Part shown: piece after piece, positions 11,968-41,261 of the stretch
How positions within the stretch are numbered: the first letter of the stretch is position 1
Layout: every line of letters starts with the position of its first letter
Assembly: GCF_900105025.1 (NCBI RefSeq)
Contig: NZ_LT629759.1
Span: 310,001-374,000, forward strand
DNA length: 64,000 nucleotides
Direction: 5' to 3'
Origin: Parafannyhessea umbonata
Lineage (GTDB): Bacteria > Actinomycetota > Coriobacteriia > Coriobacteriales > Atopobiaceae
Notes under the pieces: generated by a model
Database searches by the model: none
What the model was told of the DNA's origin: nothing
The model's input: the letters and a program-made list of their open reading frames with translations, nothing else
Made by a program: the position numbers and the translations under genes

Positions 11968-12966
11968 CTAGACGCGAGCGACGGAATCCCGTATCACGAA
12001 ATCGGAGGATATGTGGGTGACGCACGTAAACCCCTGCGGGTTTCTGACCTGGCCCAAGAGCTTCTGGACGGCCATGTTGCCAATATCGTGCTTGTGGATA
12101 TGGATGGTCGTGAGGGAGGGGAGCGTGAGCCTTGCCAGCGGAAGGTCATCGAAGCCGATGAACGATACCTCCTCCGGCACGCGGATCCCTCGCTCGAGAA
12201 ATGCGCGCATCGCTCCGCTTGCGAGGACGTTGTTGTCCGCGAAGAAGGCGGTGGGAAGTTCGGGGTCGTGACTGAGCCATTCCTTCGCGTCGGAATATGC
12301 CGTCGAGAGCTTCGTTCCCACGTGCATGACGTATTTCTCGTCGAGCGAAAGCCCGGCCTCCGTCAGAGCGTGCTCGCATCCGCGTCTTCTGAGGGGGAAG
12401 TTCTGGATGATGTCCCCTGCGGTGATGTATCCGATCTTGGTATGCCCCATGGAAATGAGGTAGTGGACCGCCGTGTACGAAGAGCTCTCGTTGGAGATGA
12501 CTATCGACTCGATGGGCTTGTGGAAGCAGAAGCCATCCACGATGACCAAGGGGGCCTCGCAGTCGTAGAACGGCCTGTAGTCCTCTTCCTTCAGCTCCGT
12601 ACCCAAGAGGATCAGGCCACTTGACTTGTCCCTGCAGAGCTCCTCTATTTGGTCCTGGGCCGTGGGGGTCTCGAGGTCGACGGTAACGTAGCGCGTCGGC
12701 ATGCCCTCGCGACGTGCCGCCCGCTCGATTCCGTCCATAACGGCGGGGTGAAACTCGCCCTCGTCGAGGATGGAGCCGGTCTTTCGTGCGACAACGAAGT
12801 TTATACGCTCGATGCGGTTCTGGGGCTGGTAGCCCATCTCTGCCGCCACGCGTACGATCTGGGCGGCCGTCTTCGGCGACACCCCGGGTTTGTGATTGAG
12901 CGCGTTCGAAACCGTCGCCGGGGAGAATCCCGTAACCTTGCTGATGGTGCGGATGCTTACCTTCAT
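11968..12966 (-). CDS. LacI-family transcriptional regulator of the adjacent sugar operon
   Basis: A 332-residue repressor: N-terminal helix-turn-helix (VSIRTISKVTGFSPATVSNALN, residues 2-23) with the hinge KPGVSPKTAAQIVRVAAEMGYQP, then a periplasmic-binding-protein-like effector domain ending in SFIGFDDLPLARLTLPSLTTIHI. It is transcribed away from the sugar operon at 13560-24256. The start at 12966 gives a normal LacI N-terminus; upstream in-frame starts would add about 70 residues without resemblance to the family. LacI-type palindromes lie at 13134-13168, between it and the operon, so it probably represses both itself and the operon and is released by the sugar (inference). Confidence 0.9.
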   Translation of the reverse strand: MKVSIRTISKVTGFSPATVSNALNHKPGVSPKTAAQIVRVAAEMGYQPQNRIERINFVVARKTGSILDEGEFHPAVMDGIERAARREGMPTRYVTVDLETPTAQDQIEELCRDKSSGLILLGTELKEEDYRPFYDCEAPLVIVDGFCFHKPIESIVISNESSSYTAVHYLISMGHTKIGYITAGDIIQNFPLRRRGCEHALTEAGLSLDEKYVMHVGTKLSTAYSDAKEWLSHDPELPTAFFADNNVLASGAMRAFLERGIRVPEEVSFIGFDDLPLARLTLPSLTTIHIHKHDIGNMAVQKLLGQVRNPQGFTCVTHISSDFVIRDSVARV

Positions 12967-13559
12967 GGTGTGTTCGCCTGCGACTCTAGTTTTAACGATG
13001 TCTCGGTCCGTGTGGAAGAGGGCCTTTCGGGCTGCAACTTTCGCGGTTCGTTCCGCTAACAACCGAAGCTCCCCCCAAGAAGTATAGCTAAACAAAATAG
13101 TTACTGTTAGGTAAATGCAAAACACTTGTTTACTGCAAGCGTTAAGTAGTGTTCTGCAAACGTTTCCAATTGTCACTCTTGCACACAAATTTAAAGTAGA
13201 TTCATTATCAAATCACTTACATACAATACAAATACAATTAATCGCATAATAAAGGATAGATTACTAAATATAAAAAAGTATCTCTGTAAAAATCCAAATG
13301 TTTAAGACTACCAATTACCCTACAAGATGCAAAGCAAAAGTTAAGAAATTTCGTTCAGCTATAAAAGTACTACCGTCTGCACTTCTCTCCTTCTGTTTAG
13401 CAAAACCTATCAGTACAGTGTTTTAGGGAGGGTCCTAAAAGGTAATTTGTGCTTTGTGACTCTCATATCTAAACAAAACACTAAACACTCTCTTCAAATC
13501 AGGATAGGACGACAGACCAAGGCGCCATGTCGGATGAGCTGGATGGGGAAGGAACTGAA
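12967..13559. promoter_or_regulatory. AT-rich regulatory region between lacI-like gene and sugar operon
   Basis: About 590 gene-free bases; from 13080 to 13500 the sequence is strikingly AT-rich compared with its surroundings. It holds the LacI-type operators at 13134-13168, several A/T tracts and -10-like elements such as CATAATAAAGG near 13255 and CTATAAAAG near 13368, and a long leader to the first operon gene. No small gene with a ribosome site was found. The low GC may reflect promoter architecture or acquired DNA. Confidence 0.6.
13134..13168. promoter_or_regulatory. Two LacI-type operators, 21 bases apart
   Basis: TGCAAACGTTTCCA (13155-13168) is an almost perfect palindrome of the LacI/GalR/CcpA type with central CG. 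A weaker copy TGCAAGCGTTAAGT starts at 13134, exactly 21 bases upstream, which puts both on the same face of the helix. Candidate binding sites for the divergent LacI-type regulator; catabolite control by a CcpA-like protein would use nearly the same sequence. Confidence 0.65.
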
Positions 13560-14996
13560 ATGGGAGACGGCTACAAGCAGATCAAGATCGGCATGGCCCC
13601 AACGAGGCGGAGCATCTTCAGCGCACCCGACGCTATCAAGTACGCAAACCTCACGCGCGCCAAGCTCGACGAGCTGGGCGTCAACTACGTCGATATCACG
13701 GACATCAACGAGGAGGGCCTCCTCTACGACGACGAGGACCGCAAGAAGATAGCCGCCAAGTTCAAGGCCGAGAAGATCGACGGCCTCTTCCTCCCGCACG
13801 GCAACTTCGGAACGGAGTACGAGTGCGCCCGCCTTGCAAAGGAGCTCGACGTCCCCGTGCTCCTCTGGGGTCCGCGCGACGAGGCGCCCCTCGAGAACGG
13901 CATTCGCCTGCGCGACACCCAATGCGGGCTCTTCGCAACTGGCAAGGTCCTGCGCAGGTTTGACGTCCCGTTCACGTACATGACGAACTGCCGCCTCGAC
14001 GACCCAGAGTTCAAGCGCGGTCTCTTCGACTTCCTCGCCGTCTGCAACGTGGTGAAGAAGTTCCGCAACATGCGCATCCTCCAGATCGGGCCCCGTCCCT
14101 TCGACTTCTGGTCAACCATGTGCAACGAGGGCGAGCTTCTCGAGAAGTTCAACATCCAGCTCGCACCCATCCCGCTTCCCGAGCTGACCGATGCGATGAA
14201 GGATGCCGAGAAGAACGAGCCCGACGTGGTCGACAGCGTCGTTGCATACTGCCACGAGAACATGACGTGTGACATCTCGGAGGAGCTGCTGCGCAACGTC
14301 GCGTCGCTCAAGGTGGCAATGCGCAACCTGGCGACGAAGTACGGTGCCTCCGCAATCGTCATCCAGTGCTGGAACGCCCTGCAGGGCCAGATTGGCATCA
14401 TGCCCTGCGCGGCGAACGCTCTTCTCAACGAGGAGGGCCTGCCTGTGGTCTGCGAGACCGACGTGCACGGCGCCATCTCCCAGGTCCTCGCTGAGGCGGC
14501 AACGCTCGGGGACACGCGCGCGATGTTCGCAGACTGGACGGTGCGCCACCCCACCAACGACAACGGCGAGCTGCTCCAGCACTGCGGTCCGTGGCCGATC
14601 TCGGTCGCGAGGGAGAAGCCCACGATCTGCGTGCCCGTAGCCTTCGACCACAACGGCGCCGTCTCTGCGGAGGCGAAGCCGGGCAAGCTCACGATCATGC
14701 GCGTCGATGGCGACCACGGTGAGTACTCGATGCTGCTCGGCCACGCCAAGGGATGCGACGGCCCGTTCACCAAGGGCACCTACCTCTGGATCGAGGTCAA
14801 CAACCTCAAGCGCCTGGAGGCGAAGGTGGTCGAGGGTCCCTACATCCACCACTGCGTCGCCATCCATGCGGACATCGTGCCTATCCTCTACGAGGCCTGC
14901 AAGTACATCGGGATCAAGCCCGACCTCTACGACCCGATCGAGGACAAGGTCAAGGCGTACCTCCATGGAGAGGACGTCACGTTCGACGAGGTCTAG
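13560..14996 (+). CDS. L-fucose/L-arabinose isomerase-family protein
   Basis: A 478-residue protein of the fucose/arabinose isomerase fold; family members interconvert aldoses and ketoses with Mn2+. Residues 1-170 form a Rossmann-like substrate domain (LFLPHGNFGTEYE). The segment VVCETDVHGA (Glu299, Asp301, His303) and the C-terminal YIHHCVAIHADI carry the acidic and His residues expected at the metal site. The length is below FucI (about 590) and near AraA, so it is a divergent subfamily. The ATG at 13560 has AAGGAA upstream; an ATG 33 bases earlier lacks a site. It is the first gene of the sugar operon and is followed by a split transketolase. The sugar substrate is not known. Confidence 0.75.
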   Translation: MGDGYKQIKIGMAPTRRSIFSAPDAIKYANLTRAKLDELGVNYVDITDINEEGLLYDDEDRKKIAAKFKAEKIDGLFLPHGNFGTEYECARLAKELDVPVLLWGPRDEAPLENGIRLRDTQCGLFATGKVLRRFDVPFTYMTNCRLDDPEFKRGLFDFLAVCNVVKKFRNMRILQIGPRPFDFWSTMCNEGELLEKFNIQLAPIPLPELTDAMKDAEKNEPDVVDSVVAYCHENMTCDISEELLRNVASLKVAMRNLATKYGASAIVIQCWNALQGQIGIMPCAANALLNEEGLPVVCETDVHGAISQVLAEAATLGDTRAMFADWTVRHPTNDNGELLQHCGPWPISVAREKPTICVPVAFDHNGAVSAEAKPGKLTIMRVDGDHGEYSMLLGHAKGCDGPFTKGTYLWIEVNNLKRLEAKVVEGPYIHHCVAIHADIVPILYEACKYIGIKPDLYDPIEDKVKAYLHGEDVTFDEV

Positions 14997-15041
14997 GTAC
15001 GCGTTTTGGCCATCAGGAAAAACCCGAAGGGAGAGGTGGCA

Positions 15042-15875
15042 ATGAACTACAAGTCTCTTGCATACGATCTGCGCAAGGACACGCTCGACATCATCATGTC
15101 CGGTGGCGGCGGACACATCGGCGGGGACATGAGCGAGATGGAGATCCTCGTCGCCCTCTATCTTGCGGGGCAGATGAACGTCTCCCCGGAAAACGCCGAC
15201 GATCCCAACCGCGACCGCTTCGTACTTTCGAAGGGCCACGCCGTCGAGGCCTACTACGCGGTCCTCGCCAAGGCCGGCTTCCTCGACATCGACGAGGTCA
15301 AGGAGAAGTTCTCGAAGTTCGGGTCTCAGTACATCGGACATCCGAACAACCATCTGCCCGGCATCGAGATGAACTCCGGCTCGCTCGGGCACGGCCTTCC
15401 CGTCAGCGTCGGGATGGCACTCGCCGGCAAGATGGACGGCCGCGACTATCGCGTGTACACCCTGCTTGGCGACGGCGAGTTCGCGGAGGGCTCCAACTGG
15501 GAGGCGCTCGAGTCCGGCGCCATGTACGGTCTCGACAACCTGTGCGCGATCATCGACCGAAACCACCTTCAGATCTCGGGCGACACCGAGGATGTCATGG
15601 CGCACGAGAAGCTCGCCGCGAAGGTCGCCGCATTCAACTGGAACGTGATCGACATCGAGGATGCGAACGACCTCGACCAAGTGATGGCAGCGCTCGAAGA
15701 GGCGAAGCAGTGCAAGGGAAAGCCCTCGTTCATCATCGCGAACACCGTCAAGGGCTGCGGGTCTCCCGTCATGGAGAACAAGGCGTCGTGGCACCACCAC
15801 GTGCCCACCCCCGAAGAGTACGACCAGATCGTCAAGGACCTCGAGTCCAGGAAGGAGGCGCTCCAGGATGCCTAA
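15042..15875 (+). CDS. Transketolase N-terminal (TPP-binding) subunit
   Basis: A 277-residue half-transketolase. Motifs: GGGGHIGGDMSEMEIL near residue 25, LSKGHAVEAYYAVL near 65, GSLGHGLPVSVGMALA near 113, and the TPP/Mg motif GDGEFAEGSNWEA near 143 continuing to IDRNHLQ. The partner domain is the next gene, which overlaps its 3' end by eight bases. Transfers two-carbon units between sugar phosphates. ATG 15042 follows GGGAGAGG; an in-frame reading 36 bases longer has no better site. Split transketolases of this type often sit in catabolic clusters and are not the housekeeping copy. Confidence 0.9.
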   Translation: MNYKSLAYDLRKDTLDIIMSGGGGHIGGDMSEMEILVALYLAGQMNVSPENADDPNRDRFVLSKGHAVEAYYAVLAKAGFLDIDEVKEKFSKFGSQYIGHPNNHLPGIEMNSGSLGHGLPVSVGMALAGKMDGRDYRVYTLLGDGEFAEGSNWEALESGAMYGLDNLCAIIDRNHLQISGDTEDVMAHEKLAAKVAAFNWNVIDIEDANDLDQVMAALEEAKQCKGKPSFIIANTVKGCGSPVMENKASWHHHVPTPEEYDQIVKDLESRKEALQDA

Positions 15876-16806
15876 CAAGATCGCCAACAGGAAGGTCATC
15901 TGCGACGTGCTCATGGAGCACGCGAAGACCGACAAGGACATCGTCGTCCTCTGCAGCGACTCTCGCGGGTCCGCTTCCCTCACACCGTTCTTCAACGAGT
16001 ACCCGGAGCAGTCCGTCGAGGTCGGCATCGCCGAGCAGGATCTCGTCGGCATCTCCGCCGGTCTTGCGGCCTGCGGCAAGAAGCCGTTCGCGGCCTCGCC
16101 GGCATCGTTCCTCTCGACGCGCTCCTACGAGCAGTGCAAGATTGACTGCGCATATTCCGACACGAACGTGAAGCTCATCGGCATCTCCGGCGGCGTCTCG
16201 TACGGCGCCCTCGGCATGAGCCACCACAGTGCGCAGGACATCGCCGCGATGAGCGCGATTCCCAACATGAGGGTGTACCTGCCGAGCGACCGCTTCCAGA
16301 CCAGGAAGCTGTTCGAGGCGCTGCTCCAAGACCAGAAGTGCGCCTACATCCGCGTCGGTCGCAACGCCGTGGAGGACGTGTATACGGAGGAAGACTGCCC
16401 GTTCCAGATGGACAAGGCGACGCTGGTGCGCGACGGCGAGGACGTTCTGCTCGTCGCGTGCGGAGAGATGGTCAGGCCCGCCGTCGACGCGGCAGGGATT
16501 CTCGAGAAGAGCGGCGTCTCCGCCTCCGTGCTCGACATGTACTGCGTCAAGCCCCTGGACCGCGAGGCCATCGTGCGCCAGGCGAGCAAGGCGAAGGCCG
16601 TCATCTCCATCGAGGAGCACTCGCCGTTCGGCGGACTCGGATCGATGGTCGCGCAGGTCGTGGGGCAGGAGTGTCCGAAGACGTGCGTCACGATGGCGCT
16701 CCCGGATTCACCGGTCATCACCGGCACCTCGAAGGAGGTCTTCGACTACTACGGCCTCAACGGCGAGGGAATCGCGAAGCGTGCCATCGAGGCACTCGGC
16801 AAGTAA
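15868..16806 (+). CDS. Transketolase C-terminal (pyrimidine-binding) subunit
   Basis: A 312-residue partner of the preceding subunit. Residues 1-170 form the pyrimidine domain with the catalytic glutamate in VEVGIAEQDLVGISAGLA (near residue 55), and the rest is the transketolase C-terminal domain with MYCVKPLDREAI and EEHSPFGGLGSMVAQV. The eight-base overlap with the N-subunit gene implies coupled translation and equal amounts. A short GGCC hairpin and a purine-rich ribosome site for the next gene follow within 60 bases. Confidence 0.9.
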   Translation: MPNKIANRKVICDVLMEHAKTDKDIVVLCSDSRGSASLTPFFNEYPEQSVEVGIAEQDLVGISAGLAACGKKPFAASPASFLSTRSYEQCKIDCAYSDTNVKLIGISGGVSYGALGMSHHSAQDIAAMSAIPNMRVYLPSDRFQTRKLFEALLQDQKCAYIRVGRNAVEDVYTEEDCPFQMDKATLVRDGEDVLLVACGEMVRPAVDAAGILEKSGVSASVLDMYCVKPLDREAIVRQASKAKAVISIEEHSPFGGLGSMVAQVVGQECPKTCVTMALPDSPVITGTSKEVFDYYGLNGEGIAKRAIEALGK

Positions 16807-16866
16807 GGCAGTCGTCAGGCCAAAGGGCCTGCTGCAAAAGGAAGCTAAAGGGGAAAGGGAAAAGAA

Positions 16867-17891
16867 ATGGCAATCTCTAGGCGTTCGTTCGTGGAAATGT
16901 CCGCTCTCGCTGGCACGACCATCGCTCTGACCGCTTGTGGCGGAAGCAAGGGTTCCGACAAGGCATCGAGCGCTGACTCGAGCAAGTCGGGCTCCAAGAA
17001 GGAGGCCAAGGTCCTCAAGGGCGGCGGCTCCAACATCATCTACGTCATTACCCCTCCGTCTCGAACCCCGCGTTCAAGGCCGAGGCTGACGGCGCGACCG
17101 ACGAGGCCAAGAAGATGGGCTACGAGGTGAAGGCGAACTCCCACGACGACGACGCGAACAAGCAGTCCGAGTTGTTCGACTCCGCCATCGCCGACAAGGC
17201 CGCGGCGATCATCTGCGACAATGCCGGTGCGGACGCAACCGTCGAGGCCGTCAAGAAGGCCGCGAAGGCGGGCATCCCGACCTTCCTGATCGACCGTGAG
17301 ATCACCACGACCGGCGATGCCATCGCCCAGATCATCGCAGACAATAACCAGGGTGCGTCCGACGTCGCGCAGACGTTCGTCGATGCCATGGGCGAGAAGG
17401 GCAACTACGTCGAGCTCCTCGGCAAGGAGTCCGACACCAACGCCAAGGTCCGCTCTGACGCCTTCCACTCGGTCATCGACCAGTACAAGGACATGAAGAT
17501 GCTCGAGCAGCAGACCGCGAACTGGGAGCAGACCCAGGCATATGACAAGATGGAGACCCTGATTCAGACCTACGGCGACAAGATCCAGGGCGTCGTCTCC
17601 GGCAACGACACCATGCTCCAGGGCGCCTGCGCTGCGCTCGAGGCGCACAACATGAACGTCCCCGTCATCGGCGTCGACGGCTCTGACGAGACACGCGATC
17701 TCATCAAGCAGGGCAAGGCGACCGCGACCGCGCTCCAGCAGTTCGACGTCATCGCCCGCACTGCCGTCCAGGAGGCCGATAAGTACCTGAAGGACGGCTC
17801 TACCGGCGAGGACGAGAAGCAGCTCATCCCGTGCATCGTCATCACCAAGGACAACGCGGACAAGCTGAACGGCTTCGTATACACCGAGTAG
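16867..17891 (+). pseudogene. Ribose-type ABC substrate-binding lipoprotein, interrupted by a one-base frameshift
   Basis: The N-terminus MAISRRSFVEM...LTACGGS is a lipoprotein signal with a lipobox Cys near residue 24 and a twin-arginine-like start. The frame follows the family to SNIIYVIT (about residue 61) and then leaves it at the run CCCC (17051-17054); adding one base restores PSVSNPAFKAEADGATDEAKKMGYEVKANSHDD and joins the 258-codon frame that ends at 17891, which has the typical RbsB-like body (AIICDNAGADATVEAVKKA, PTFLIDREI, GVVSGNDTMLQGA, VIGVDGSDETRDLI). So either the gene is broken, it switches by C-run slippage, or the base was lost in sequencing. The intact ATPase and permease downstream argue for an error or slippage. 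Confidence 0.85.
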
Positions 17892-17913
17892 TCGCAAATC
17901 GATTTCAACATCG

Positions 17914-17942
17914 CGGGGGCATGGGTGCCACCCATGCCCCCG
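17914..17942 (+). terminator. Strong hairpin after the binding-protein gene
   Basis: A perfect inverted repeat: GGGGGCATGGGT, three-base loop, ACCCATGCCCCC. There is no poly-U tail, so it probably stabilises the upstream message or gives partial termination, the usual way to make more binding protein than permease. Confidence 0.65.
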
Positions 17943-18006
17943 TGATGCATTGGATGTTACGTGGCAGTACGCGTGGTCGGGCGCGTTGCCAGATTGGAGG
18001 AGAAAG

Positions 18007-18690
18007 ATGAGGAAGGGGTTTCTCCCGGTAGTGGCAAGCGCACTTGTGGCGGGGGCCGTCGCGCTCTCCGGCTGCACCGTCGTGCCCATCGGTCAGGAGG
18101 CCAAGTATACGGGCGAGGTCACGTTCGACGCCAAGGCCCAGTCCAAGGACCTTTGGAAGAAGGTTAAGGACGAGGTTCCCTCAAAGGCTGCGGACCTCGG
18201 CGAGCTGCTGACCGCGGGCGATGCCGGAAGCCTCACGAAGGACGATGTCATCCAGAAGTTCAACGGCAAGAGACTCAGCACCTCCAAGGTCGCGGCGGGT
18301 AGCGGCGTCGTTTACGCCGTCAAGGGAACGGGAACCGTCACCGAGGTCAACGCGAAGGCCGTTGACAAGAGCGCCTCGTCCAAGGGCACGATGACCGTCG
18401 TCGTCGATGGCTACGCGGGGAGCAAGAAGGTCGTCATCAACGTTGGACCCGTCATCTCCGACACGTCTCTGCGTGACTACCTCACGAGCATCAACCTGAA
18501 CGACTACAAGGACACCACGCAGTGGAGCCAGGTCTCCCAGGCAATCAACGACACCGCCCAGAAGGACGTGATCGACAAGGCCGACATCGGGAGCCTGAAG
18601 GGCAAGAAGATCAGCTTCACCGGAGCGTTCACCGCCAAGACCGGAATGACCATGGCCAGCATCACCCCGGTCGAGTTGAGCGCCGAGTAG
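18007..18690 (+). CDS. DUF2291-family lipoprotein linked to sugar ABC transporter
   Basis: A 227-residue protein with a lipoprotein signal peptide (MRKGFLPVVASALVAGAVALSGC; lipobox Cys at residue 23) and the DUF2291 pattern that includes ESDLWKK-like and KKISFTGAFT segments. Genes of this family sit between binding-protein and ATPase genes of ribose-like importers; the role is not established. ATG 18007 has GGAGGAG upstream, and an earlier in-frame ATG would hide the signal peptide. Confidence 0.75.
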   Translation: MRKGFLPVVASALVAGAVALSGCTVVPIGQEAKYTGEVTFDAKAQSKDLWKKVKDEVPSKAADLGELLTAGDAGSLTKDDVIQKFNGKRLSTSKVAAGSGVVYAVKGTGTVTEVNAKAVDKSASSKGTMTVVVDGYAGSKKVVINVGPVISDTSLRDYLTSINLNDYKDTTQWSQVSQAINDTAQKDVIDKADIGSLKGKKISFTGAFTAKTGMTMASITPVELSAE

Positions 18691-18724
18691 GACGTCCTCG
18701 ACATTAGGAAGGAGATGCATGCAC

Positions 18725-20284
18725 ATGGCAGGATACAGCTGTCCCGATAACGTCTTCCTGCATGCCGAGAAGATCTCGAAGATCTACCCGGGCACCAAGG
18801 CCCTGGACGAGGTTTCCTTCGATCTTCTGAAGGGCAAGGTCAACGTCCTCATCGGTGAGAACGGCGCGGGTAAGTCCACGCTCATGAAGATGATCGCCGG
18901 CATTGAGCAGCCGTCCTCCGGAACGATGTACATCGGTGACCAGGAGGTCCACTTCAAGGACACCACGGAGGCGAGGAAGCACGGAATCGGCATCATTCAC
19001 CAGGAGCTGAGCCTGTTCCCCAACCTCAACATCTACCAGAACATCTTCATGAACAAGGAGCTGAAGAAGGGTGCGTCGCTTGACAATGCGAAGCACGTCG
19101 AGCGGGCCAACAAGGTCCTCGCGAAGCTCGAGCACCCGATGGACCCCAACACCATCGTCGGCACCCTTCGAGTTGGTCAGCAGCAGATGGTCGAGATCGC
19201 GCGCAATCTCGTCGACGACGACCTCAAGGTACTCATAATGGACGAGCCCACCTCGTCGCTCTCCCAGCAGGAGGTCCAGGTCCTCTTCAAGATCATGCGC
19301 GAGCTCACGAGCGAGGGTCTCTCGATCGTCTACATCTCTCACCGTCTCGAGGAGATCATGGAAATCGGCGACCACGTCACCATCCTGCGCGACGGCAAAT
19401 ACGTGGACGACGCGGACGTCAAGGACATCAGCGTGTCTTGGATCGTCTCCAAGATGACGGGAGGCGAGAAGAACTATCCCAAGCGCGACCGCACCGTCGA
19501 CTGGGCCAGGCAGCCCAAGGTGCTCGAAGTCAAGGATCTGTGCCTGCCGAAGCCTGGCGGAGGCTATCTCGTCGACCACGTGAGCTTCGACCTCAAGAAG
19601 GGCGAGGTCCTTGGCATCTACGGTCTTCTCGGCGCCGGACGCTCCGAGATCTTCGAGTGCATCATGGGCCTGCATCCCGAGCACACGGGCGAGGTGGACA
19701 TCGAGGGGAAGCCGGTGCAGATCAAGAGCGTCTCCCAGATGATTGACATGGGGGTTTCGCTCATTCCCGAGGACCGTCAGGGCAGCGGTCTCGTCCAGAC
19801 GCTCGACATCGAGAAGAACGCCTCCCTCGCCGCGCTGAAGCGCTACAAGAGGGGGCCGTTCATCGATTCGGCGCTCGAGGACAAGAAGGTAGACGAGGAG
19901 ATCGAGGACATCCACATCAAGGTCGCGGACAAGCACCTGCCGATTCTCTCGCTCTCCGGCGGAAACCAGCAGAAGGTCGTCATCGCAAAGGGCCTGCTCA
20001 CCGAGCCGAAGATCTTTTTGATGGACGAGCCGAGCAGGGGCATCGACGTCGGCGCGAAGACGGAGGTCTTCGAGATCATCAACAAGTACGCCCAGCAAGG
20101 TCTGTCCATCATCGTCATTTCCTCGGAGCTCGAGGAGATCATGGCGATCTCCGACCGGATCATCGTCCTGTCGAACGGCAAGAAGACGGGCGAGTTCGTC
20201 GGGGATGACATCACAAAGGACGCGCTCGTGATGGCTTCGTACAAAGGCCATCACACGGAAACGAAACAGCAGGAGGGTAAGTAA
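18725..20284 (+). CDS. Sugar ABC transporter ATPase, RbsA-like (two ATPase domains)
   Basis: A 519-residue duplicated ATPase for ribose-class import. The first domain has Walker A GENGAGKST (residues 44-52), the motif RVGQQQMVEIARNL and Walker B VLIMDEPTSSLS; the second has the degenerate Walker A YGLLGAGRSE, the signature LSGGNQQKVVIAKGL and LMDEPSRGIDVG. Two in-frame ATGs lie close together; the second (18725) is chosen because it sits ten bases from AGGAAGGAG, while the first is only four bases away. The permease gene follows after two bases. Confidence 0.93.
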   Translation: MAGYSCPDNVFLHAEKISKIYPGTKALDEVSFDLLKGKVNVLIGENGAGKSTLMKMIAGIEQPSSGTMYIGDQEVHFKDTTEARKHGIGIIHQELSLFPNLNIYQNIFMNKELKKGASLDNAKHVERANKVLAKLEHPMDPNTIVGTLRVGQQQMVEIARNLVDDDLKVLIMDEPTSSLSQQEVQVLFKIMRELTSEGLSIVYISHRLEEIMEIGDHVTILRDGKYVDDADVKDISVSWIVSKMTGGEKNYPKRDRTVDWARQPKVLEVKDLCLPKPGGGYLVDHVSFDLKKGEVLGIYGLLGAGRSEIFECIMGLHPEHTGEVDIEGKPVQIKSVSQMIDMGVSLIPEDRQGSGLVQTLDIEKNASLAALKRYKRGPFIDSALEDKKVDEEIEDIHIKVADKHLPILSLSGGNQQKVVIAKGLLTEPKIFLMDEPSRGIDVGAKTEVFEIINKYAQQGLSIIVISSELEEIMAISDRIIVLSNGKKTGEFVGDDITKDALVMASYKGHHTETKQQEGK

Positions 20285-20286
20285 CC

Positions 20287-21372
20287 ATGGCAGCGGATAC
20301 TAAGAAGGGCTCGGGCGGCAACAACCAGCTGTTGATGACGCTGCTCAAGGGTCGTACGCTCATCGTTCTCGCAATTCTCTTCGTGTTCTTCAGCTTCGCG
20401 GCACCGAACTTCTTTAACGTGGACTCGCTCCTCTCCGTCGCGAAGCACGTGGCTTTGTATGGCATCCTCGCCATCGGCATGACCTACGTCATCATCACGG
20501 GCGGCATCGACCTCTCCGTTGGCGCCGTCGTCGGATTCTGCGGCATGCTCGCGGGCGGCTTTTTGCAGGAGGGCCTGACGCTGCCCATGTTCGGCGTCAC
20601 GATCTACATGTCCGTCCCCGTCGTCGTGCTCGTTACGCTTGCCATTGGCGTGCTTTTGGGAGTCGTGAACGGCCTTATCATCACGAAGCTCGGTGTGACG
20701 CCCTTCATTGCGACTCTGGGCACCATGTACGTGTGGCGCGGATTCGCGAACATCCGCTCCAATGGCGCGACCTTCAACGACATCGCGGGCAAGGCGGGCC
20801 TTGGCAACATGGGCTTCTCGTTCTTCAGCTCCAGCATCTTCGGAATCGTACCCATGGGCGTCGTGATCCTCGTGATCTTTGCGGTCATCGCGGGCCTCGT
20901 CCTGAACAAGACGGCGTTCGGCTGGCATGTGCTTGCCATCGGCGGCAACACCAACGCGGCGAGGCTGTCGGGCATCAAGGTCGACAAGAGCCTCATCATC
21001 GTGTACGCGATTTCTGGCCTGTGCTCGGCCATGGTCGGCATCATCACCACCTCTCAGCTGATGGCCGCGCACCCCGCGACTGGCAACTCCTGGGAGATGA
21101 ACGCCATTGCGGCATCCGTCCTGGGCGGCACCTCGATGGCAGGCGGCGTCGGAACCATCATCGGAACCATCGAGGGTGCCTTCGTCATCGGCGTGATTAA
21201 CGACGGCATGACCATGATGGGCGTCACGGAGTTCTGGCAGCAGGTCATCCGCGGTCTCGTCATCATCGTCGCCGTCGTGATCGACCAGGTGCAGCGCAAC
21301 ATCCAGGCGCGTATGGCGCTTCAGGCGAGAAACGAGTCCAAGAACGAGGAGAAGGCCGCGGCAACGGCATAG
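20287..21372 (+). CDS. Sugar ABC transporter permease, RbsC-like
   Basis: A 361-residue inner-membrane protein with about nine to ten hydrophobic helices and the family signatures GMTYVIITGGIDLSVGAVVG (near residues 65-85), TLGTMYVWRG, and LGGTSMAGGVGTIIGT (near 280). Forms the channel used by the RbsA-like ATPase and the lipoprotein binding protein. The C-terminal tail is basic and Ala-rich. Confidence 0.93.
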   Translation: MAADTKKGSGGNNQLLMTLLKGRTLIVLAILFVFFSFAAPNFFNVDSLLSVAKHVALYGILAIGMTYVIITGGIDLSVGAVVGFCGMLAGGFLQEGLTLPMFGVTIYMSVPVVVLVTLAIGVLLGVVNGLIITKLGVTPFIATLGTMYVWRGFANIRSNGATFNDIAGKAGLGNMGFSFFSSSIFGIVPMGVVILVIFAVIAGLVLNKTAFGWHVLAIGGNTNAARLSGIKVDKSLIIVYAISGLCSAMVGIITTSQLMAAHPATGNSWEMNAIAASVLGGTSMAGGVGTIIGTIEGAFVIGVINDGMTMMGVTEFWQQVIRGLVIIVAVVIDQVQRNIQARMALQARNESKNEEKAAATA

Positions 21373-21416
21373 CGACTCGCCCTTGCAAGGGGACTTGACA
21401 GCAGTTCGTAGTGAGT

Positions 21417-21456
21417 GGGGGCGCCGCCATCCGCCGCATGGCGGGGCGACGCCCCC
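21417..21456 (+). terminator. Intercistronic hairpin between permease and rbsD-like genes
   Basis: GGGGGCG (21417-21423) pairs with CGCCCCC (21450-21456), and an inner CCGCC/GGCGG extends the stem with one mismatch. There is no U-run, so attenuation or message stabilisation is likelier than full termination. Confidence 0.55.
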
Positions 21457-21474
21457 AAGTCGAAGGGACACGCC

Positions 21475-21870
21475 ATGAAGAAGAGTGGCATCATCAACGC
21501 GCAGCTTGCGGGCCTCCTTGCGGGGCTGGGGCACAAGGACACCTACATGATCGCGGACGCGGGCATGCCCATACCGAGGGGCGTGGAGATCGTGGACTTG
21601 GCCGTCGTGGGTGGAGTTCCGACGTTTAGGCAGGTCATGGACGCGATTGCGGACGAATGCGTCTTCGAGCACTATACGCTTGCGGAGGAGATCAAGGAGG
21701 CGAACCCCGAGCTCCATGCGTACGTGCAGGAGAAGCTCGAGGGGGTCGAGCATGACTACGTGCCACACGTCGAGCTGAAGCGCATGGAGGCCAGCTGCAA
21801 GTTCGTAATCAGGACGGGCGAGTTTTCGCCGTACCCCAACGTTCTGCTGACCGCTGCGTGCGCGTTCTAG
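21475..21870 (+). CDS. rbsD: RbsD-like sugar pyranase (mutarotase)
   Basis: A 131-residue protein of the RbsD/FucU fold, which converts pyranose and furanose ring forms so that the right anomer reaches the kinase. Visible family residues: His20 and Asp28 in LGHKDTYMIADAGMPIP and the C-terminal RTGEFSPYPNVLL, which holds the substrate-contacting Tyr and Asn. CGAAGGG precedes the ATG. It is followed after eight bases by the FGGY kinase gene. Confidence 0.88.
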   Translation: MKKSGIINAQLAGLLAGLGHKDTYMIADAGMPIPRGVEIVDLAVVGGVPTFRQVMDAIADECVFEHYTLAEEIKEANPELHAYVQEKLEGVEHDYVPHVELKRMEASCKFVIRTGEFSPYPNVLLTAACAF

Positions 21871-21878
21871 GGGTGGAC

Positions 21879-23372
21879 ATGTCGAAGTACGTATTGGGCA
21901 TCGACCAGAGCACGCAGGGGACCAAAGCCATCCTCTTCGACGAAAAGGGGGCTCTTCTCGCCCGGGCGGACCGTCCCCACAGGCAGATCGTGAACGATCT
22001 CGGATGGGTCGAGCACGACCCGGAGGAAATCTATGGCAACGTGGTCGCGACCGTGGCGGACGTGGTCGCGAAGGCAGGCGTCGACAAGGGCGACATCGCG
22101 TGCGTGGGCATCTCGAACCAGCGCGAGACGTCGCTTGCGTGGGGCGCGGACGGCACGCCGTGCCACAACGCCATCGTGTGGCAGGACGCGCGCGCGAAGG
22201 ATGTGTGCGAGCGCGTTGCGGCCGCGGGCATGGCAGACGCGGTGAGGGAGAGGTCGGGAACCAGGCTGTCCCCGTACTTTCCCGCGGCGAAGCTCGCGTG
22301 GATCTGCGAGAACGTGGACGGCGTCGCCTCGGGTCTGCGTCGTGGCGGCCTGCGCCTGGGCACGGTTGACGCGTACCTGGTGTATAGGCTGACGCATGGG
22401 AAGTCGTACAAGACGGACTACTCGAACGCGTCGAGGACGGAGCTCTTCGACATACACACGCTCACGTGGGACGAGGAACTGTGCGACGCGTTCGGCATCC
22501 CGGTTGCGGCGCTTCCCGAGGTGTGCGACTCCGACGCGCTCTTCGGCGTGACCGACTTCGAGGGCTACCTGGACGCGCCCATCCCCATACACGCGGTGAT
22601 GGGCGACTCCCACGGTGCACTGTTTGGGCAGGGTTGCCTGCGGCCTGGCATGGTGAAGGCGACGTATGGCACCGGCTCCTCTGTCATGATGAACGTGGGG
22701 GAGAGCCCCGTGACGTCGGATAGCGGCCTCGTCTCCTCCCTCGCGTGGAAGCTGGGCGGCAAGGTGAGCTACGTCCTGGAGGGCAACATCAACTACACGG
22801 GTGCCGTCGTGACGTGGCTGAAGGACGACGTGGGGCTCGTGAAGTCCGTGGGTGAGACCGAGGAGCTCGCGCGCGCCGCGAGCGAGAGCGACCAGAGCTA
22901 CCTGGTGCCGGCGTTCTCCGGCCTGGGCGCGCCGTACTGGGACTCCGCCGCCGTGGGCGTGCTGTATGGGATGACGAGGACGACGCACAGGGCAGAGATC
23001 GTGCGCGCGGCGCTGGACAGCATAGGCTACCAGATAACGGACGTGCTGAGGGCGATGGAGAGGGACTCCGACGTCTCGCTCGGCGAGCTGCGCGTGGACG
23101 GCGGCCCCACGCACAACGGATACCTCATGCAGTTCCAGAGCGACATCGCCCGCGTGCCGGTGGCGGTCTCCCCGACGGAGGAACTCTCCGGCATGGGCAC
23201 CGCGTACGCCGCGGGGTGCGGCATGGGGATCTACGACGCGGACCAGCTGTTCGACGGCGTGGAACGCCGGGTCTTTAGGCCCGAGCGCGACGAGGCGTGG
23301 TCGCGTCGGAAGTATGATGGCTGGAGACGCGCCGTGTCCAAGGCGCTCTCTGAGACGAAGGAACGCTCATGA
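21879..23372 (+). CDS. FGGY-family carbohydrate kinase (xylulokinase/glycerol-kinase-like)
   Basis: A 497-residue sugar kinase with the FGGY actin-like ATPase fold: N-terminal phosphate loop LGIDQSTQGTKA (residues 6-17), conserved NQRETSLAW and AIVWQDAR, ATP-site GTGSSVMMNVG, and the C-terminal signature LRVDGGPTHNGYLMQFQSDI with a catalytic Asp expected at about the DSHG segment. ATG 21879 has GGGGTGG upstream. The gene overlaps the following PfkB kinase gene by four bases. The ketose substrate is not clear: it groups with xylulokinase, ribulokinase and erythritol kinases by pattern. Confidence 0.85.
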   Translation: MSKYVLGIDQSTQGTKAILFDEKGALLARADRPHRQIVNDLGWVEHDPEEIYGNVVATVADVVAKAGVDKGDIACVGISNQRETSLAWGADGTPCHNAIVWQDARAKDVCERVAAAGMADAVRERSGTRLSPYFPAAKLAWICENVDGVASGLRRGGLRLGTVDAYLVYRLTHGKSYKTDYSNASRTELFDIHTLTWDEELCDAFGIPVAALPEVCDSDALFGVTDFEGYLDAPIPIHAVMGDSHGALFGQGCLRPGMVKATYGTGSSVMMNVGESPVTSDSGLVSSLAWKLGGKVSYVLEGNINYTGAVVTWLKDDVGLVKSVGETEELARAASESDQSYLVPAFSGLGAPYWDSAAVGVLYGMTRTTHRAEIVRAALDSIGYQITDVLRAMERDSDVSLGELRVDGGPTHNGYLMQFQSDIARVPVAVSPTEELSGMGTAYAAGCGMGIYDADQLFDGVERRVFRPERDEAWSRRKYDGWRRAVSKALSETKERS

Positions 23373-24256
23373 GGATTCTCGACTTCGGATCTTTGAACAT
23401 CGACTACGTGTACCAGGTCGACCACATGGTCAGGCCTGGCGAGACCCTCGCCGCGGGGCGGCGCGACGTGTACCCCGGCGGCAAGGGGCTGAACCAGGCC
23501 GTCGCGTGCGCGCGGGCCGGCGCCAAGGTGTGGCAGGCGGGCCTCGTGGGCCCCGAGGGCGGCCTGCTTCTGGACGTGTGCCGAGAGGCCGGCGTGAACA
23601 CGGATTTCGTGCGGACCGTCGACGTCGCGAGTGGCCACACCGTCATCCAGGTGGATAGGGGAGGCCAGAACTGCATCCTGTTGTACGGGGGTGCAAACCA
23701 GCGCATCGACGAGGCGTATGCGGACGAGGTCCTCTCGCACTTCTCGGCGGGCGACTATGTGATCCTGCAGAACGAGATTTCGTGCCTGCCGCACATCGTG
23801 GACGCGGCCGCCGCGCGCGGTATGAGGGTCGTGCTGAACCCCTCGCCGTACAACGAGGCGCTGGAGGCCGTCGACATGTCGAAGGTCTCTCTCTTCCTGC
23901 TGAACGAGGTCGAGGGCGCGCAGGTCGCCGGCGGCTCCGAGGACCCGGACGAGGTCCTGGCGCGCCTGGGCGAGAAGTACCCGGACGCCGCGGTCGTGCT
24001 GACGCTCGGGTCCGAGGGCTCGCGCTACCAGCGGGGCGACGAGCGCTACGCGCAGGGCATCTACCACGTGGACGCGAAGGACACCACCGCCGCCGGCGAC
24101 ACGTTCACCGGCTACTTCGTGTGGGCCGTGAGCGAGGGCAGGCCCGTGCCCGAGGCGCTCGACATCGCCGCGAAGGCATCCGCCATCGCGGTGTCGCGCG
24201 CGGGCGCCGTGCCGTCCATCCCCACGATCGACGAGGTCATGGCGGCCAAGCTCTGA
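23369..24256 (+). CDS. PfkB-family sugar kinase, ribokinase-like
   Basis: A 295-residue kinase of the ribokinase/PfkB fold. The N-terminal signature GGKGLNQAVACARAGA (about residues 37-52) and the C-terminal anion hole with the catalytic base DTTAAGDTFTGYFVWA (about residues 236-251) are both intact. It is the last gene of the sugar operon. Why one operon needs both an FGGY and a PfkB kinase is not obvious: either two related sugars are handled or one kinase acts on the product. Confidence 0.9.
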   Translation: MRILDFGSLNIDYVYQVDHMVRPGETLAAGRRDVYPGGKGLNQAVACARAGAKVWQAGLVGPEGGLLLDVCREAGVNTDFVRTVDVASGHTVIQVDRGGQNCILLYGGANQRIDEAYADEVLSHFSAGDYVILQNEISCLPHIVDAAAARGMRVVLNPSPYNEALEAVDMSKVSLFLLNEVEGAQVAGGSEDPDEVLARLGEKYPDAAVVLTLGSEGSRYQRGDERYAQGIYHVDAKDTTAAGDTFTGYFVWAVSEGRPVPEALDIAAKASAIAVSRAGAVPSIPTIDEVMAAKL

Positions 24257-39770: not shown

Positions 39771-41261
39771 CTACATCGATCTCCTAATCGCGTCCTTCCA
39801 GCCGGCCAGAAGGCCGGCAACGTCGTCCTCGTCCATGGTAGGACGGAACACGTCGTCAGAGGAGCGCAGGGCGAGAAGATCTTGCGTCCCCGACCAGAAC
39901 CCGCTTGCGAGGCCCGCGAGGTATGCGGCCCCAAGGGACGTGGTCTCGATGTTCTGGGGGCGCCTGATGCTCGCCCGCAGGACGTCTGCCTGGAACTGCA
40001 TGAGGAAGTCGTTGCGCGATGCGCCTCCGTCCACGTTCAGGTCGCGCAGGGTGACGCCGGCGTCGGCCTCCATGGCGCGCACGAGGTCGTACGTCTGGTA
40101 CGCCAGCGCCTCGAGCGCGGCGCGCGCCACGTGCGCCGGCGTGGTGCCACGGGTGATGCCGCAGATGATCCCGCGCGCGTCAGGCTTCCAGTATGGGGCG
40201 CCCAGACCGGTGAACGCTGGCACGATGTACACGCCGCCCGTGTCGGGGACGCTGCGCGCCAGGAACTCCGTCTCCTCGGCGGTGCGGACGAGGTGCATCT
40301 CGTCGCGCAGCCACTGTATGAGGGCGCCTGCCACGAACACGCTGCCCTCGAGCGCGTACTGCACGTGCGGCGCGTCCGGCGGCGTGGCAGCTATGGTCGT
40401 GACTAGGTTATTCTTGGAGACCGGCGCCTGCTCGCCCGTGTTCATGAGCAGGAAGCAGCCAGTGCCGTACGTGTTCTTCGCCTGGCCGGGCTCGAAGCAG
40501 CACTGGCCAAACAGCGCGGACTGCTGGTCGCCGGCGACGCCGCGGATGGGAATGCCCGCCGGGATGCCCGGGTAGCTCGTCTCGCCAAAGAACGAGGCGG
40601 ACGGCCGCACCTCCGGCATCATGGAGGCGGGAATGCCAAACAGGTCCAGAAGCTCCTGGTCCCAGCGGCCCTCGTGGATGTTGTACAGCATGGTGCGGCT
40701 GGCGTTCGTGGGGTCCGTCGCGTGCACGAGCCCGCCCGTGAGCACCCACACGAGCCACGTGTCCACGGTGCCAAACACGAGCTCGCCGGCCTCGGCACGC
40801 TCCCGCGCCCCGTCCACGTTGTCGAGCAGCCACTTGATCTTGCTGGCCGAGAAGTACGCGTCTGGCAGGAGCCCGGTCTTCGCCTGGACCATGCGCCTTG
40901 CCTCCTGCGTGCCGCACAGCTCGTCGATGATGGGCGCGGTGCGGCGGCACTGCCAGACGATGGCGTTGTGGATGGGCTCGCCCGTGGTGGGGTCCCACAC
41001 GATCGTGGTCTCGCGCTGGTTGTCGATGCCGATGGCGGCGACGTTGTCCGCGGTGAGGGAGTGGCGGCTCGCGAGCTCCGTCAGGCTTCCGAGCTGCGAG
41101 TACAGGATCTCCTGCGGGTTATGCTCCACCCAGCCCGGCTTGGGGTAGATCTGCGGGTACGTGCGCTGCACGCAGTCGACCATGCGCCCCGCGTGGTCCA
41201 CCAGGACGGCGCGCGAGGACGTGGTGCCCTGGTCGAGCGCGACTATGTACTTCTCGCCCAT
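39771..41261 (-). CDS. glpK: Glycerol kinase
   Basis: Phosphorylates glycerol to sn-glycerol 3-phosphate. The 496-residue FGGY-family protein has the N-terminal [13 protein letters not shown] loop (about residues 8-20), [37 protein letters not shown] near 250 and the C-terminal [20 protein letters not shown] 41261 has GGAGG upstream, and the lipase-like gene upstream ends within it. The stop codon is followed at once by an M20 peptidase. Glycerol from lipid or from glycerol uptake would enter glycolysis here. Confidence 0.96.

Follow-up and report, generated by a model that had tools for sequence, protein, structure and literature searches.

Which sugar is consumed by an operon that joins an isomerase, a split transketolase and two kinases to a ribose-type importer? 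The question is raised by a locus of Parafannyhessea umbonata, whose genome is a single contig of 2.35 Mb (NZ_LT629759.1 of assembly GCF_900105025.1). The window analyzed here is the 64,000-nucleotide stretch between positions 310,001 and 374,000 of that contig, and coordinates refer to it unless another record is named. Its open reading frames (ORFs) delimit the operon between the start of the isomerase gene at 13560 and the end of a PfkB kinase gene at 24256, with all genes on the + strand. We propose, at a probability of about 0.84, that this operon encodes the uptake and transketolase-type catabolism of D-apiose, because its transketolase, FGGY kinase and importer are kin to AptA, AplK and the importer of Escherichia coli, a separate glycerol kinase GlpK is present, enterobacterial clusters hold a matching gene set, and apiosidase-family (PF13204) genes co-locate with the core. 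Apiose is a constituent of rhamnogalacturonan II in the cell walls of higher plants and of numerous flavonoid glycosides. The route is already known, and what differs here is a distantly related isomerase and added genes of ribose type; it is not a new pathway. An earlier annotation of the window from its letters (the original prediction) named genes that the ORFs and family scores all bear out, as they do the operon coordinates; the LacI-type regulator that it described as facing the operon lies outside the span that it gave. The features are:

11968-12966, - strand: LacI-family regulator, an ORF divergent from the operon; best NCBIfam matches CytR/RbsR, all below cut-off
13088-13094 (+), 13394-13400 (-), 13469-13475 (+) and 13481-13487 (+), within intergenic 13088-13487: four CTAAACA/TGTTTAG boxes, putative LacI operator half-sites
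13560-14996, + strand: fucose/arabinose-isomerase-superfamily isomerase, proposed D-apiose isomerase (apiose to apulose), from superfamily, tree and invariant residues
15045-15875, + strand: transketolase N subunit (TK-N), AptA-like by family scores, alignment and tree
15868-16806, + strand: transketolase C subunit (TK-C), AptB-like by family scores and alignment
16867-17891, + strand: ribose-type sugar-binding protein gene, frame broken near 17052 by a C run one base shorter than in relatives
18010-18690, + strand: DUF2291 lipoprotein, importer accessory (138.9 bits, cut-off 22.5)
18719-20284, + strand: sugar ATP-binding cassette (ABC) transporter ATPase, by family score and alignment
20287-21372, + strand: sugar ABC transporter permease, by family score and alignment
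21475-21870, + strand: RbsD mutarotase/pyranase (145.1 bits, cut-off 93)
21876-23372, + strand: FGGY kinase, AplK-like by scores, tree and active-site letters, proposed apulose kinase
23369-24256, + strand: PfkB kinase, ribokinase-like (TIGR02152)

Kinship with enterobacterial apiose clusters

Seven window products align with those of the apiose cluster of E. coli SE15 (L128), at identities from 25% (DUF2291) through 42% (binding protein) and 47% (ATPase) to 50% (permease). We located the SE15 genes for AplK, AptA and AptB by the locus tags in PMC13001218, whose passages on the cluster report growth on D-apiose of three cluster-bearing E. coli strains, all other than SE15, and of E. fergusonii, and no growth of K-12. 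Clusters of the same kind in Klebsiella (pINF102.2, L129), Rahnella (L130) and Sodalis (L131) have in common with SE15 and the window the split transketolase, the FGGY kinase, the ribose-type binding protein, DUF2291, the ABC ATPase and the permease, and these three also share with the window a fucose/arabinose-superfamily isomerase. RbsD and PfkB are extra in the window, and the enterobacterial regulator is annotated as a 'sugar-binding transcriptional regulator' where the window has a LacI protein. The E. coli cluster, as described in part of PMC13001218 and as seen at the locus, carries two short-chain dehydrogenase/reductase (SDR) dehydrogenases and no isomerase. The matches of TK-N, the kinase and the importer uphold what had been the first option named, i.e., that isomerase, kinase and split transketolase together make the apiose route. 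The accompanying statement, by which this gene set is found in no known pathway, is not supported, as the three isomerase-bearing clusters hold the same core, importer parts and isomerase type, and to call the pathway undescribed was too strong when the core set is already found in enterobacterial apiose clusters.

TK-N is 46% identical to SE15 AptA, and TK-C is 34% identical to E. coli AptB (186 bits in pairwise alignment). In a 49-row TK-N tree, from which a 1-deoxyxylulose-phosphate-synthase-like sequence of the same genome (L142) was left out, the window clade (21 rows), AptA (5 rows) and three proteobacterial FGGY-linked transketolases form a set of 29 (99 in the Shimodaira-Hasegawa-like approximate likelihood ratio test, SH-aLRT) that excludes 20 other transketolases, drawn from the window genome and six others; support for the window clade alone is 79. 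By sequence, TK-N thus classifies as an AptA-type transketolase subunit. The window genome encodes two more split transketolases, beside genes that look like parts of a phosphotransferase system (PTS) by eye (L143, genome positions 60000-76000; L144, genome positions 1993000-2008000), both outside the AptA set. AptA-grouping transketolases also occur on Rhizobium, Caballeronia and Agrobacterium plasmids (L239, L240 and L241), where an FGGY kinase and SDR dehydrogenases accompany them; no isomerase was seen in the displayed stretches, and the substrate there is perhaps an alditol such as apiitol.

The FGGY kinase is 38% identical to SE15 AplK. Family scores make it glycerol-kinase-like rather than fuculokinase- or ribulokinase-like: it passes the broader model NF000756 (566.5 bits, cut-off 498) and stays below the glycerol kinase model TIGR01311 (560.7 bits, cut-off 590.35), on which E. 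coli AplK scores 495 bits and only 2 of 16 isomerase-linked relatives exceed 590. Kinship with L-fuculose or ribulose kinases had been named as a result that would speak against the original prediction; what we find instead is this glycerol-kinase-like score and a grouping with AplK. In a 58-row tree, GlpK is separated from a joint grouping of the isomerase-linked FGGY kinases with five AplK-type kinases (SH-aLRT 96); support is too low to make a firm clade of either the isomerase-linked group (49) or the GlpK group (51). Two positions, which we take to be glycerol contacts in GlpK, separate these groups: the residue after the catalytic D and one in the TGxF motif are both S in 75/75 isomerase-linked and 5/5 AplK-type rows, versus Q and F in all 19 GlpK rows. 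The 75 rows comprise 60 kinases from named loci (those under 470 residues were dropped), 12 from genomes with such loci, and those of the window, Listeria and Monoglobus. A separate GlpK scores above the TIGR01311 cut-off (686 bits) at 39774-41252 on the - strand, about 16 kb past the operon end, and 16/16 other genomes examined likewise have a GlpK above the family cut-off. We therefore rejected a plain glycerol kinase, given the TIGR01311 score, the D-S/S rather than D-Q/F letters and the separate GlpK, and the kinase classifies, on sequence grounds, as an AplK-type D-apulose kinase.

Its kinship likewise assigns the importer (binding protein, DUF2291, ATPase and permease) to the apiose-importer type. 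The product of the 3' part of the binding-protein gene matches Protein Data Bank entries 4ry0/5ibq with 316 bits, and the next solved protein with 151 bits. We take these entries to be structures of a single protein of Rhizobium etli, the presumed ligands being ribose and, in 5ibq, D-apiose. A 'probable ribose' annotation is all that the passage on this protein in PMC8112048 gives.

A distant isomerase

The isomerase is the component whose function we assign from context, because the enterobacterial isomerases are only 26-29% identical to it and belong to another clade; context and superfamily suggest a D-apiose isomerase. Its score on Pfam Fucose_iso_C (28.9) is just below the gathering score of 29.3, which does not make it an L-fucose isomerase, and its best NCBIfam match, the sulfoquinovose isomerase SftI (NF048012), reaches 103.1 bits of a cut-off of 700. 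No solved relative was found by phmmer at E 0.01, nor any close relative by a profile search of solved structures. Two alignments of isomerase relatives show no variation at E299, D325, H341, H430 and H431. A weak profile match to an arabinose isomerase (E 0.28) sets E299 opposite a Glu and H341 opposite a His, both presumably metal ligands, and D325 opposite an Asp beside the arabinose isomerase Glu, one place off.

In L129-L131, the isomerase gene, annotated as 'L-fucose/L-arabinose isomerase family' or 'fucose isomerase', has the transketolase pair on one side and the kinase gene on the other. The reference cluster of Pectobacterium has apsI and that of Escherichia is without it, according to the cluster descriptions in PMC13001218, which is why we took these three isomerases, by gene order, to stand in for Pectobacterium ApsI. 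The Klebsiella protein scores 110.9 bits on Fucose_iso_C, and the window isomerase clade aligns with it over 441 columns (profile E 1.3e-33), so that the window and enterobacterial isomerases are homologous at the level of profiles. The doubt raised earlier, that apiose isomerases are TIM-barrel proteins, loses its force with enterobacterial apiose-type clusters that carry a fucose/arabinose-superfamily isomerase. In a 46-row tree, the 17 transketolase-linked isomerases all fall into a single clade (support 100), and long branches leave the deeper branching order unsure.

Conservation and neighborhood of the core genes

A scan with the isomerase alignment returned at least 581 confirmed relatives, and 80 loci were kept for neighborhood counts (74 Bacillota, 3 Synergistota, 2 Actinomycetota and 1 Chloroflexota; 45 assigned to Lachnospiraceae). 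The best-matching relative listed, 99% identical in its isomerase, is P. umbonata strain 105184 (L047). A genome-neighborhood check of the isomerase had been proposed in the original prediction; run on the 60 of 80 loci with at least 5 kb downstream, it places TK-N and TK-C no more than 8 kb from the isomerase in 60/60 and the FGGY kinase in 58/60; the kinase was missed in L054 and in L064, whose assembly is interrupted at that place. With these counts, the grouping of isomerase, transketolase and kinase genes exceeds chance. When 396 genomes were drawn evenly from the phylum, 62 held an isomerase relative (E 0.001), and across the 30 short loci and 16 longer stretches read, the transketolase pair adjoins the isomerase, besides the window, only in G249, a genome from the same taxonomic order.

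The transporter type is variable. A ribose-type ATPase is present in 16/80 kept loci, accompanied, on manual reading, by an RbsD-type mutarotase in 7/16 and a FucU-type one in 6/16; of the rest, L085 and L095 end early and L122 is without a mutarotase. Within 8 kb of the isomerase, RbsD occurs in 8/80 loci and PfkB in 6/80, with unequal flank lengths. Three loci (L087, L093 and L104) have the rearranged order RbsD-isomerase-LacI-PfkB-FGGY; the transketolase pair was seen further downstream only in L104, the contigs of L087 and L093 ending.

Listeria monocytogenes (L133, 4004-13086) resembles the window in its LacI gene, an isomerase 74% identical, TK-N, TK-C and an FGGY kinase of the same 36-row set, and differs in that a PTS transporter and an apiosidase-family gene replace the ABC importer, RbsD and PfkB, and in its divergent kinase. 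By gene order and product names, L133 matches lmo1031-1036, which the passages on these genes in PMC2996996 describe as unevenly distributed among lineages, giving no substrate; the same source has lmo1030 as a BglG-type regulator, where L133 annotates LacI.

Ten of 16 genomes contain 19 PF13204 (Apiosidase) genes. Seven genes, in 7/16 genomes, lie within 20 kb of the isomerase versus 0.16 expected (P ~1e-10, assuming uniform placement, rounded genome sizes and independent genomes, and with the 20-kb limit chosen after the places were known). Strong PF13204 genes are found in L081 (327 bits) and L109 (321 bits); after the four core genes, the Listeria record has a PTS gene and a PF13204 gene of 313 bits, and the Monoglobus record, at a short distance, a PF13204 gene of 60 bits. 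By profile, an Apiosidase-like cluster (c10) recurs in 10/80 kept loci, nine of them (a fragment in L073 included) assigned by our clusters or profile; its Pfam-scanned member (L078) scores a modest 55 bits and carries DUF5060 and DUF5605. Sde182-type relatives are near the core in five loci (one member Pfam-scanned), and GH78, GH127, GH43, GH3, GH2, GH29 and GH106 (Pfam) also recur nearby.

As to regulation, the LacI gene occupies the same place in L047 and L048. CTAAACA occurs five times in the whole window versus 1.09 expected (0/100 shuffles reach five); four of these boxes lie in the gap between LacI and the isomerase gene, and the corresponding gaps of L047 and L048 hold four and five copies of CTAAAC. 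When the promoter gap was searched for inverted repeats, no palindrome common to the three relatives emerged, so that the proposal of LacI half-sites, which is plausible, comes from the CTAAACA repeat.

Proposed route, rival substrates and implications

From these kinships and gene contexts we infer the following route, activities included. The importer would bring in free D-apiose, and RbsD would probably speed the interconversion of its furanose forms. The isomerase would convert apiose to apulose, as context and superfamily suggest, and the FGGY kinase, as its AplK kinship suggests, would form apulose 4-phosphate. The split transketolase, by analogy with AptA/AptB, would then transfer a two-carbon unit to glyceraldehyde 3-phosphate, yielding dihydroxyacetone phosphate and xylulose 5-phosphate. 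PfkB and RbsD may allow the same importer to feed ribose, and LacI probably represses the operon via the CTAAACA boxes. The importer may take up both apiose and ribose, which would explain RbsD and PfkB, and these two could also both serve apiose alone.

Several observations weigh against this apiose route. Besides the low identity and separate clade of the enterobacterial isomerases on long branches of the 46-row tree, the nearest relatives outside the window clade (L003-L008) are 41-50% identical, with no transketolase neighbor seen on L033-L038, mostly short contigs. PF13204 is a broad family: 9/16 genomes have no member within 20 kb of the isomerase, six have none at E 1e-6, and the genome of the window itself has no PF13204 match. 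Nucleoside-hydrolase-like genes (c13) lie near the core in seven loci (L057, L081, L096, L106, L111, L115 and L123; L115 Pfam-scanned); they could be furanosidases for apiosides or ribosides, and together with the other hydrolases they point to no single sugar. The Listeria kinase keeps both S residues but has E for H (ADSE, LGTGCSVM), among other changes, on a very long branch. The binding-protein gene is frameshifted near 17052, with 4 C in the window versus 5 C in L047 and L048, whose copies are open; the lesion (17040-17060) may mark a pseudogene or an assembly error in the C run. Finally, apiose forms no pyranose, which leaves RbsD, a ribose enzyme, without an obvious fit.

That last gene, with the ribose-type importer and a ribokinase-like PfkB, is what would recommend a ribose or other straight-pentose operon, in which a ketopentose formed by the isomerase would be converted to its 5-phosphate by the FGGY kinase, the transketolase being an additional copy for the pentose phosphate pathway, with RbsD and PfkB for ribose; the nucleoside-hydrolase-like genes in seven loci and the Sde182-type relatives in five fit it as well. 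We nevertheless consider it improbable. PfkB is below the ribokinase cut-off (TIGR02152, 217.7 versus 299.65 bits; a better match elsewhere in the genome, 260.8 bits, is also below it), the FGGY kinase is far below the ribulokinase and xylulokinase cut-offs, the transketolase belongs with AptA, apart from the other transketolases encoded by the same genomes, and RbsD and PfkB are scarce around the isomerase. The known ribose (rbs) operon shares with the window its importer type, RbsD and a ribokinase-like PfkB; an isomerase, an AptA-type transketolase and an AplK-type kinase are not rbs parts.

A different order of reactions, with transketolase cleaving unphosphorylated apulose to dihydroxyacetone for phosphorylation by the GlpK-like FGGY kinase, would suit the overall glycerol-kinase likeness (560.7 bits), since glycerol kinases accept dihydroxyacetone. 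It is very hard to reconcile with a kinase that groups with AplK and carries AplK rather than GlpK active-site letters. The original prediction had also pointed to the sulfoglycolytic transketolase route. The sulfo-transketolase pathway has a split transketolase, and SftI, the best NCBIfam match of our isomerase, belongs to the same superfamily. Yet sulfoquinovose is scarcely credible here and was rejected as the substrate: 103 bits are far below the 700 of the model, proteins of 381-423 bits exist elsewhere, in another clade, in 3/32 genomes searched, isomerases of enterobacterial apiose clusters are equally weak on the SftI model (114 and 116.5 bits), and the SE15 apiose cluster, against which the comparison was run, has matches for the importer, the kinase and the transketolase.

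With apiose preferred, the isomerase clade of the window, and its spread in gut anaerobes, may be undescribed. The literature searched contained no paper that treats the gut cluster as an apiose pathway or names apiose-eating Gram-positives of this sort in the gut. PMC13001218 cites Carter et al. 2018 for the degradation of apiose by Bacteroides and Clostridia, and part of the finding may already be contained in that work. More tentatively, and somewhat short of an even chance, a second, independently recruited apiose isomerase of the fucose/arabinose superfamily might drive a widespread pathway of gut Clostridia and Coriobacteria (perhaps Listeria), whose ABC-importer form may handle ribose as well as apiose, an RbsD- or FucU-type mutarotase of its own acting on the furanose forms of the branched sugar. 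If the apiose assignment is true, the kinases labeled 'glycerol kinase' in Listeria and Monoglobus records would be apulose kinases, many genes of the 'L-fucose/L-arabinose isomerase family' would gain a substrate, and the Listeria cluster (lmo1031-1036-like) would gain a likely role.

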